The notes beneath the pieces are model-generated. The model was given only the letters and a program-made list of their open reading frames with translations, was not told the origin of the DNA and ran no database searches. DNA of 43,114 bases from Clostridia bacterium (lineage in GTDB: Bacteria; Bacillota; Clostridia; Oscillospirales; Acutalibacteraceae): NCBI GenBank assembly GCA_017465505.1, contig JAFTWB010000014.1, forward strand, positions 1 to 43,114, written 5' to 3'. Each line of letters opens with the position of its first letter. Positions within the stretch are counted from its first letter, which is position 1. Shown here piece after piece: positions 16,129-24,656 of this stretch. The position numbers and the translations under genes are program-made.

Positions 16129-16148
16129 AAAGGTAAAAAACTATAATC

Positions 16149-16291
16149 GCACGCAAAGCGTGCCACCGACATATTTACGAAGTAAATACTTCATACGCCG
16201 AAAGGCGTATTTCATTTGCCAAAGGCAAACTTCATACACGCAAGTGTACTTCATTACATTCGCCCTGCGAATGTCTGCCACATCACTTCAT
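16149..16291. repeat. Array of short hairpins with a constant CTTCAT-type linker
   Basis: The first unit is the leader hairpin GCACGC-AAA-GCGTGC (16149-16163). It is followed by ATTTAC-GAA-GTAAAT (16173-16187), TACGCC-GAAA-GGCGTA (16194-16209), TTTGCC-AAA-GGCAAA (16215-16229), TACAC-GCAA-GTGTA (16235-16248) and ACATTCGC-CCT-GCGAATGT (16256-16274). Units are joined by (A)CTTCAT or TTTCAT, and a last CTTCAT ends at 16291. The stems are all different and all perfect. Confidence 0.9.
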
Positions 16292-23752: not shown

Positions 23753-24110
23753 CCTTCAGCCACGGGTTAGCCACCCGAGGGCAACTCCACCTTTGGAAAG
23801 GCTTGATGTAACTTTGACCAGTCATCAACGGTGGGGTCAAACGCAAAAACTGTCCGTAAGGACAATACCACTACCGTTTGCCACGACAGGGCAGTTCCGC
23901 CTTTTGGCAGGTTTCATCGGACTTTTAAGTACATCAACGGCGAAATTAGACGTAAAAAACTGTGCGAAGCACAATAAAACTGCGTAGCAATAACACTTGC
24001 GTCAGCAAATACCACTCGCCGCAGGCGAATATCACTACCCCTCGCCACGGCAGGGCAGTTCCGCCTTCTGACAGGTTAGATATAAATTGAACCTACGATT
24101 AACGGCGGGA
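23753..24110. repeat. Compound repeat: three 121-bp family cores with hairpin units between them
   Basis: Three diverged cores (from about 23757, 23873 and 24038, each ending in an AACGGTGG/CGGCG-type sequence) alternate with hairpins. Units include CTGTCC-GTAA-GGACA (about 23849), TGTGC-GAA-GCACA (23961-23973), TTGC-GTCA-GCAA (23997-24008) and TCGCC-GCA-GGCGA (24016-24028), joined by ATA(A/C/T)CAC linkers. No gene is supported here. Confidence 0.85.
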
Positions 24111-24190
24111 AAATAACAAAGTTGAAAATTGAAAGTTGAAAGTTGAAAATTTCGGGTCGCTTTGCTCCGATTATTAAATAAACTAGGATT

Positions 24191-24317
24191 GCACGCAAAG
24201 CGTGCCACATTAACGTTTGCAAAGCAAACATATCGCACTGCTTGCAGTATATCGCATTTGCGTAAGCAAATATATCGAATTGACGAAGTCAATATATCGC
24301 TCCGACCAAAGGTCGGA
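24191..24317. repeat. Array of six short hairpins with constant ATATCG(C/A) linkers
   Basis: Leader hairpin GCACGC-AAA-GCGTGC (24191-24205), then GTTTGC-AAA-GCAAAC (24215-24229), ACTGC-TT-GCAGT (24237-24248), ATTTGC-GTAA-GCAAAT (24256-24271), ATTGAC-GAA-GTCAAT (24279-24293) and TCCGACC-AAA-GGTCGGA (24301-24317). The last five are joined by four linkers ATATCGC, ATATCGC, ATATCGA and ATATCGC. Stems are perfect but unrelated in sequence. Confidence 0.93.
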
Positions 24318-24368
24318 TGTTCCACCTCTTCACTCTTCACTTTGTCCGAAGCACAATCCCACCCATTT

Positions 24369-24394
24369 GTAGGGGACGGCTCCCAAGACGTCCC
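24369..24394 (+). repeat. GTAG-headed REP-like palindrome
   Basis: GTAGGGGACGGCTCCCA opens an imperfect palindrome with stem GGGACG/CGTCCC. It is close in sequence to the copy at 7063-7088. Confidence 0.75.
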
Positions 24395-24449
24395 GTGAGG
24401 TAGTGCTTTAAGGAGATATCTGCCTTTTGATAAAATGAATTTATAGGGT

Positions 24450-24574
24450 AAATTCAATAACGTTGGTTTATTGAATGGTTTTTAATTGATTTGAATGTAA
24501 CGCTTAGTTTTCAATGTGAAAAGCACGACGTGATTTGAAACCCTTGCTCGGGACGTCGAGGCGCCGTCCCCTAC
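24450..24574 (-). repeat. Composite GTAG-REP element, inverted relative to the 7063 copy
   Basis: On the minus strand it starts GTAGGGGACGGCGCC at 24574, then GACGTCCCGA, CTTTTCACATTGAAAA and AAGCGTTA. This matches the order of parts at 7063-7140. The inner region (24450-24500) is AT-rich and only loosely alike. Confidence 0.7.
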
Positions 24575-24592
24575 AACCACTCATCAAACTTT

Positions 24593-24615
24593 CTATAATC
24601 GCACGCAAAGCGTGC
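24593..24615 (+). repeat. Solitary leader hairpin
   Basis: CTATAATC followed by GCACGC-AAA-GCGTGC. It is identical to the start of the array at 16141-16163 but is followed by no variable hairpins. Confidence 0.85.
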
Positions 24616-24656
24616 CACCACACCTCTTCACTCTTCACTATTATCTCTTACCTGAT

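Follow-up and report, generated by a model that had tools for sequence, protein, structure and literature searches.

A clostridial hairpin array with constant ATATCG heptamers is probably the gene-less end of an IVS/S23 (PF05635) mobile element

The window analysed here, that is, the whole 43,114-nucleotide contig JAFTWB010000014.1 of the Clostridia bacterium assembly GCA_017465505.1, is contig C12 of a genome (G000, the "own genome" below) that is 84% complete in 30 contigs. The genes neighbouring the array in this contig encode CBM26/dockerin amylases, and the array itself sits in a 1065-bp spacer reaching from the start of a CBM26/dockerin gene to the end of a rarA-like AAA gene. It is intergenic and thus outside 23S rRNA, unlike the classical IVS location. 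Four ATATCGM heptamers at 24230-24300 alternate with hairpins and are flanked by leader and outer hairpins; the array is a single half, not an inverted double (see below). Its parts are as follows.

24191..24205, + strand: pre-leader hairpin, 6 bp, loop AAA; stem covaries among the genome's copies (helix 1, three pairs altered on both sides) and forms in the DNA fold
24215..24229, + strand: leader hairpin, 6 bp, abutting the first linker (helix 2 of the own-genome copy alignment; DNA fold)
24230..24236, + strand: heptamer linker 1, ATATCGC (from sequence)
24237..24248, + strand: hairpin 1 (helix 3 of the copy alignment)
24249..24255, + strand: heptamer linker 2, ATATCGC (from sequence)
24256..24271, + strand: hairpin 2, 6 bp, loop GTAA (helix 4 of the copy alignment; DNA fold)
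24272..24278, + strand: heptamer linker 3, ATATCGA (from sequence)
24279..24293, + strand: hairpin 3, 6 bp, loop GAA (helix 5 of the copy alignment; DNA fold)
24294..24300, + strand: heptamer linker 4, ATATCGC (from sequence)
24301..24317, + strand: outer hairpin, 7 bp (helix 6 of the copy alignment, 86% of cells paired; DNA fold)

The linker sequences, the hairpin starts and their spacing of 22, 19, 23 and 22 nt are exactly those written in the first-pass annotation, which had described six short perfect hairpins in a row. All six were located, but the hairpin at 24237 (ACTGCTTGCAGT) reaches five pairs only with a 2-nt loop, having otherwise four pairs and the loop CTTG, and the minimum-energy DNA fold of the array does not fully form it. 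Folded as DNA, the array reached -27.9 kcal/mol, compared with -14.8 ± 2.5 in 200 shuffles (z -5.3; 0/200 as low), and the folding energy of the opposite strand was about equally good (z -5.1). ATATCG occurs 29 times in the window, where 10 were expected (0/100 shuffles had as many).

Four further repeats lie in the window, two of them scored with the Rfam model of Gut-1 RNA (RF01706; cut-off 50 bits).

23985..24066, - strand: second hairpin array, in the same spacer, with ATACCAC/ATATCAC/ATAACAC linkers on the + strand; Gut-1 score 37.5 bits, below the cut-off
16183..16256, - strand: third hairpin array, with ACTTCAT/ATTTCAT linkers on the + strand at 16188, 16209, 16229 and 16248; Gut-1 score 53.9 bits, above the cut-off
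24118..24148, + strand: plain tandem heptamer AAAGTTG, 4.4 copies, the sort of repeat that flanks other S23 genes (from sequence)
24326..24341, + strand: plain tandem heptamer CTCTTCA, 2.3 copies, present again at 24624-24639 (from sequence; compare locus L490)

The flavour of the second array is that of the array before an S23 (PF05635) gene of the same genome (G000:C5:24547), and the flavour of the third is that of the array before another (G000:C11:143129). A GTAGGGGACGG...GACGTCCC repeat has two inverted copies in the array's spacer, at 24362-24395 and 24547-24576. In addition, a lone hairpin with the frame CTATAATC-stem-CACC and a variable stem was seen at 16141-16168 and 24593-24619, with a variant at 24182-24208. 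This hairpin stands ahead of arrays of differing flavours, occurs also by itself and in L037-L056, and is present with a different stem at the orthologous spacer of G459 (L435).

The first-pass annotation had suggested searching the genome and its relatives for three spaced ATATCG linkers, and held that its idea would fall if no further arrays turned up; many were found. The 211-bp array region, used as a DNA query, gave 38 own-genome matches including itself at 69-100% identity (77-95% for long ones), and the bare pattern of three ATATCG at array spacing matched the own genome 28 times versus 0 for the reversed control. The bare pattern was present in 29 of 59 genomes (own and relatives), the reversed control in 5 genomes, once each; same-genus matches of the bare pattern look like coding chance, G028 excepted. 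A stricter pattern, applied to genomes drawn evenly from the order, matched 67 of 394, some of them counted through coding chance matches at low counts (e.g., G192 and G380), versus 2 of 394 for the reversed control. Counts with this pattern reached 47 in one genome (G241) and were patchy across families. A scan of named records returned at least 119 stretches (L086-L204), 52 of which hold arrays passing our pairing filter; judged by title, these 52 are Clostridia MAGs without exception, mostly from ruminants or other guts. Bare-pattern matches outside gut Clostridia were set aside as mostly coding chance (52 of the 119 loci listed passed the array filter), and a phage origin was rejected with filter-passing arrays in just 3 of 119 viral-contig loci among the matches listed. 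Note that several arrays lie less than 100 bases from a contig start (G260:C39; G063:C5, C15, C122 and C127; G292:C38, C94 and C95), so that the elements may break short-read assemblies and copy numbers may be lower bounds.

Three inner hairpins alternating with four heptamers are usual, being the count in 53 of 73 halves from the named loci; another 18 halves have two inner hairpins, the minimum that the filter demands, and the remaining 2 have four. An extra hairpin usually stands ahead of the first heptamer. Furthermore, 27 inverted doubles were inspected, most of them built to one plan: a long hairpin, half A on one strand, a centre, and half B on the other. The outermost hairpin of half A is usually AAATCCC/GGGATTT, and the centre ends in GGATTTATATC. 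Doubles are a minority among the arrays found by exact pattern (29 vs 102 single halves). The seventh base of the heptamer tends to one kind within an element: in 26 of 29 doubles the majority base is the same on the left as on the right, and of the single halves from other genomes 71 of 88 are homogeneous, while own-genome single halves are mostly mixed (2/14 homogeneous), as is the window array. We considered that left and right linkers might pair in doubles, as a ladder of four-way junctions, but the agreement in flavour is no proof of it because single halves are equally homogeneous.

Conservation of pairing and spacing rather than of stem sequence, the central claim of the first-pass annotation, was borne out. 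In an alignment of 12 own-genome copies, 97.3% of cells pair. Changes on both sides affect 6 pairs, a number reached in 8 of 500 shuffles, and 16 cells, a number reached in 0 of 500, whereas further pair types are not raised (9 vs 10.3); the paired double changes stand amid unchanged surroundings. Stems identical by descent and free of compensatory change, the other outcome that was to count against the claim, are thus not what was found. Across loci, 189 of 467 distinct unfiltered segments (between two ATATCG 14-40 nt apart, pooled from 204 loci) pair at four or more positions in register, compared with about 3.4% after length-matched swaps of 3' halves, which answers the proposed test of complementarity above that of shuffled sequence. 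The loop and stem counts below were taken on pairing-filtered arrays; the pairing excess was measured before filtering. A comparison of strains for gain and loss of units had also been proposed. In G201 and G178, which carry an element after the same gene, G178 lacks two whole units of half B, a clean loss between linkers, and single unpaired changes are present in the stems.

The loops differ by strand. In 273 paired units outside the own genome, loops read on the ATATCG strand were GNA in 61, GNNA in 53 and ANA in 28, whereas the mirror classes TNC, TNNC and TNT numbered 0, 0 and 1, the remaining 130 units falling into other classes. Internal double mismatches flanked by stems were GA/GA in 22 of 25 cases, mostly in a pyrimidine-GA-purine context. 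In oriented doubles, half A had 16 GNA and 12 GNNA loops and no GA/GA, and half B had 8 GNA, 6 GNNA and 12 GA/GA; the strand preference holds for both halves. GNA, GNNA and CNNG loops, as well as Py-GA-Pu tandem mismatches, are stable in DNA. Array units had no UNCG loop, and the third base of their GNNA loops was a purine in 31 and a pyrimidine in 23 (n = 54); on the other hand, terminator-like hairpins in the sampled loci (n = 326) had 24 UNCG and 2 GNA loops. These counts favour the ATATCG strand as the folding strand, and loops of DNA type over RNA type.

The palindromes may have arisen by selection or by a palindrome-making mutational process, the two origins that the first-pass annotation had offered. 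A specific form of the latter is template switching of the nascent strand within hairpins, which would rewrite one arm as a copy of its partner and let the stems drift in concert in the absence of selection on pairing. The many distinct, perfectly paired stems (122 distinct arms in the 189 paired units) and the paired double changes in unchanged surroundings are as it would predict. We nevertheless consider it unlikely, since it does not agree with the unrepaired single stem changes between G201 and G178, and it leaves unexplained the constant heptamers, the usual three inner hairpins per half, the stable loops and the confinement of GA/GA pairs to half B.

Four congeners (G026, G443, G459 and G439; the four inspected of 161 searched, each having both flanks among the matches) keep both flanking genes of the window array, with a spacer devoid of ATATCG. 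Likewise, the gene behind which G201 and G178 have an element is followed by none in G138 and G232, although the downstream sequence of these two differs as well; the G428 contig ends inside that gene. No target-site duplication was established at these near-empty sites, which differ in other bases too. As for placement, 11 of 13 usable doubles have a gene ending a median of 24 bp before the half-A end. Of the single halves from other genomes, 57 were usable, and 35 of these have a stop codon converging on them, the median distance being 29 bp. Left out of the counts were 8 of the 21 oriented doubles and, among the singles from genomes other than G000, 26 of 83, all because of overlapping and probably spurious ORF calls, along with 5 doubles whose orientation is unknown. 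Ten array-adjacent genes examined by Pfam were for the most part ordinary and mutually unrelated, and two matched no family. A gene cluster, which in L251 includes a tRNA_U5-meth_tr-like methyltransferase (by Pfam, for L251), recurs beside elements in up to eight loci, the others being L160, L170, L182, L222, L224, L229 and L248, and could be a preferred place of insertion. A composite transposon was considered for loci with two nearby copies and rejected, L182 having the look of genes duplicated in tandem.

The arrays resemble REP/BIME sequences in being short palindromes scattered beside genes and in folding as a single strand, and their mobility could accordingly depend on a Y1 transposase such as those of the IS200/IS605 or TnpA-REP (RAYT) kind. 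REP stems, however, are conserved and need a Y1 enzyme, whereas the stems here are free, and the Y1 transposase family PF01797 does not track the arrays (10/24 array genomes and 10/23 array-free genomes). No ATATCG array was seen in 30 sampled Y1 loci, and the two PF01797 genes of G000 were likewise without one in the loci sampled. A Y1/RAYT system was rejected on these counts; we regard it as extremely improbable.

When the 498 ORFs lying up to 2.5 kb from arrays in 127 loci (some sampled twice) were compared all against all, a single small conserved ORF emerged, which in 7 of these loci is no more than 160 nt away from an array. This is PF05635 (23S_rRNA_IVP; E 5e-21 or better), and its S23 protein matches the solved relative 2rld at E 1.2e-23. 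PF05635 genes lie in the sister ATATCG loci L160 (JAGBIB010000189.1), L170, L222, L246 and L513. In L246, a pair of inverted ATATCG arrays encloses the gene, whose ATG follows one array by 22 nt and whose stop codon precedes the other by 3 nt; L519 also has inverted repeats on both sides of the gene. The window copy is without a PF05635 gene, the three matches of the own genome being on contigs C1, C5 and C11. By genome, PF05635 was found in all 24 genomes with arrays and in 7 of the 23 without (Fisher 1.6e-7, with kinship ignored, the association confounded with phylogeny and the genomes chosen by array count). The seven are G033, G292, G048, G066, G085, G096 and G191, and three of these (G292, G085 and G096) carry Gut-1 matches.

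Upstream of S23 genes we found hairpin-spaced arrays of ACATCA, ACTTCA, ATTTCA, AATTCAT, ATATCA, ATACCA and other heptamers; other S23 loci have plain tandem heptamers upstream, which in several loci reappear inverted behind the gene. A 6-mer repeated at least four times within 300 nt upstream was present in 42 of 52 distinct S23 windows (34/42 in the order, 8/10 on plasmids) versus 12 of 51 other genes, these controls being from the same loci and not a genome-wide sample. Four S23 windows that were too short and three duplicates were left out, and L486 was not located. The score is crude: L535 passes without a visible array, and L500/L516, L540 and L541 fail with one visible. S23 relatives in other phyla, on plasmids, have plain heptamer repeats; by eye, these accompany 9 of 10 plasmid genes (cyanobacteria, a spirochaete, Bacteroidota and Monoglobus; 10 of 25 records found). 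The Nostoc ATCC 53789 plasmid gene showed no heptamers by eye, though it passed the crude score. The presence of PF05635/S23 genes after such heptamers was not foreseen in the first-pass annotation, and a literature search, with subscription journals mostly outside its reach, found no publication that connects S23/PF05635 to dispersed arrays of heptamers or hairpins.

That annotation knew of no named element with this design. One exists: Gut-1 (RF01706) has this very design, with a different heptamer and read from the other strand. Like the window array, Gut-1 consists of three hairpins in succession, whose stems pair but vary in sequence while the 7-nt linkers stay constant, and it comes from gut bacteria; unlike the ATATCG arrays, it is annotated on the opposite strand, as a stand-alone ncRNA, with the linker GUGAAAU (ATTTCAC) in place of ATATCGM. 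The Gut-1 model had no match to the array at 24191-24317 even at E ≤ 1, let alone at the curated 50 bits, whereas a sister ATATCG half in L122 scored 49.7 against the cut-off of 50. Each Gut-1 match in the window and L122 is on the strand opposite to that of the stable loops. At E ≤ 0.001, among 30 chosen genomes, matches occurred in 16 of 16 array genomes (6-40 each; 15/16 over the cut-off) and 3 of 14 array-free genomes; the array and Gut-1 counts are not independent because some Gut-1 matches are ATATCG halves. Among 14 control genomes, E. coli gave one Gut-1 match, below the cut-off.

Of 20 Gut-1 loci, which are the best-scoring ones and not a fair sample, several have the same double element with the heptamer ATTTCAC, and the model spans one half of it only. 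In nine of the 20 (L464-L468, L470, L471, L479 and L483), a script found a hairpin, a T-tract and a CAA(C/T) junction at the half-A end. The same hairpin/T-tract junction was seen by eye in L478, and the junctions of these ten loci read ..TTTTC-AAC- or -AAT-, the Gut-1-flavour elements directly following terminator-like hairpins. ARAGORN placed a tRNA or tmRNA gene in all ten loci, including L478. One terminator sequence recurs in three genera (L464, L465 and L471), so that it may belong to the element.

Under an RNA reading, which is that of the Rfam Gut-1 entry, the hairpins would act in a transcript, either the 3' UTR of the upstream gene or the 5' leader of the S23 mRNA, the heptamers would be single-stranded protein sites on RNA, and mobility would be secondary. 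Arrays do stand close behind stop codons with fixed polarity, and half B is co-oriented with the S23 gene. The S23 relative Avd, moreover, belongs to RNA-based retroelements, which would fit a role in RNA. A resemblance of Avd to PF05635 is described in PMC10053308, and the tabulation of Weinberg et al. (2010; PMC2864571) has Gut-1 as certainly RNA, from the human gut only. However, the stable loops form on the strand opposite to the would-be 3' UTR, and since half A folds on one strand and half B on the other, no single transcript can hold both folds. Together with loops that, compared with those of the terminator-like hairpins, are not RNA-like, and with adjacent genes that are mostly ordinary and unrelated to each other, this makes an RNA element an unlikely explanation of the arrays.

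Heptamer identity largely follows the lineage of the S23 protein, and co-inheritance of the two is partial. On a quick tree of 55 S23 proteins (four labels set by hand: L521, L516, L217 and L525; 10 of 52 inner branches with support of at least 95), there were 12 changes of heptamer label, compared with a mean of 28.8 in shuffles (0/200 as low), and most PF05635 proteins clustered by heptamer, not by host. The AATTCAT proteins form one group and the ACATCA proteins one (unsupported), the ATATCG label requires two changes, and the ATTTCA label three. Clustering on this tree was absent for ATATCA and ACTTCA (500/500 shuffles as low). All labelled hairpin-spaced types fall in one group of 32 (support 90), and the three S23 genes of G000 (ACATCA, ACTTCA and ATACCA) fall in three different heptamer groups. 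AATTCAT arrays occurred in 13 of 47 genomes, all among the 24 array genomes and including 5 of 5 with a typed AATTCAT gene; in G178 and G201 they were at the gene itself only, and in G045, with 25 AATTCAT-array matches, no AATTCAT-type gene was seen. ACATCAY arrays occurred in 10 of 47 genomes, including 4 of 4 with a typed ACATCA gene. They had 36 matches in G000, were at the gene only in G099 and were absent from G055 and G178; some G092 matches are a coding-like repeat. No ATATCG-type S23 gene was present among the PF05635 matches, all of them inspected, of the array-rich genomes G000 (three matches, in a genome 84% complete), G178 (five) and G045 (four, two of them cut by contig ends), so that their ATATCG copies would be fossils or have moved in trans.

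These three genomes, together with array matches that far outnumber S23 genes (e.g., 53 vs 9 PF05635 in G055), would suit a view in which the arrays pre-exist as repeats and S23 elements land in them, the gene being a guest and not the owner. This view is opposed by the heptamer largely tracking the protein tree across genera, by S23 genes in other phyla and in Coxiella rRNA carrying heptamers of their own, and by L246 and L519, where inverted repeats enclose the gene; we judge it very unlikely.

Several known systems share parts of this design. Heptanucleotide intergenic repeats, such as the STRRs of cyanobacteria, likewise have a 7-nt unit in intergenic DNA, and cyanobacterial plasmid S23 genes are flanked by such heptamers; in contrast to the window array, these repeats are plain tandem ones without hairpins. 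Mobile double-hairpin elements with variable stems are known from Allomyces mitochondria. By description only, the latter are similar as mobile hairpins with variable stems, but they are organellar and have no heptamer linkers and no S23. TAACTGA intergenic repeats have been reported in Beggiatoaceae (PMC4679880), a paper in whose main text the terms S23, four helix and IVP do not appear. In the Coxiella IVS, tandem heptamers precede the S23 gene in numbers that vary between strains (PMC4990558). This 23S rRNA IVS resembles our elements as a small element whose sole gene encodes an S23 four-helix-bundle protein, with heptamers directly before it, but the ATATCG elements are intergenic and in many copies, their heptamers are hairpin-spaced, and most copies are gene-less.

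From the architecture, covariation, strand asymmetry, gene association, partial heptamer-protein co-inheritance and presence or absence among congeners, all computed here, we conclude that the window array is probably the gene-less, cis-acting end of a selfish mobile element of the IVS/S23 (PF05635) kind, with the heptamer as its recognition site. Our confidence is high for the architecture and the gene association, moderate for the array being part of an S23 element, and low for the exact mechanism of movement. A complete element would comprise half A (on the other strand), a short centre, half B and then the gene for a four-helix-bundle protein of about 120 residues; some copies would have a further inverted half array behind the gene, and single halves would be the commoner remains. 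The heptamer may be the element's own recognition sequence, one per S23 protein lineage, and in this clade the heptamers would be kept apart by hairpins that need pairing but not a fixed sequence. We infer that the S23 protein, whose relative is a homopentamer, attaches to the heptamers left open between the hairpins of single-stranded DNA and folds the element end into a compact complex. The protein and host enzymes would then move or copy the element, mostly to positions just after genes, and copies without the gene would be non-autonomous passengers or fossils. We know of no catalytic domain in S23, so that the chemistry of movement is missing from this explanation.

More broadly, and with about an even chance in our estimation, S23/IVP proteins may constitute a phylum-spanning class of mobile elements that move although they encode no recognised nuclease, transposase or polymerase. 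Their small four-helix-bundle protein would recognise its cognate heptamer array, here between hairpins of single-stranded DNA, and host replication or repair would do the chemistry; the Gut-1 "RNA", 23S rRNA IVSs and many heptamer repeats of bacteria would then belong to such elements as parts or footprints. This would give one common, testable explanation for Gut-1 (2010), the orphan S23/IVP family and short bacterial heptamer repeats, it predicts which heptamer each S23 protein would bind, and, if true, it describes a class of elements that conserves the structure of its spacers and not their sequence.

Among the plasmid genes, two heptamer-flanked S23 genes lie in CRISPR loci, in L539 (NC_019772.1, Anabaena cylindrica pANACY.01) and L543 (NZ_CP112878.1, Pseudanabaena galeata pPg_04), where they are located between cas2 and cas1 or directly before cas1.
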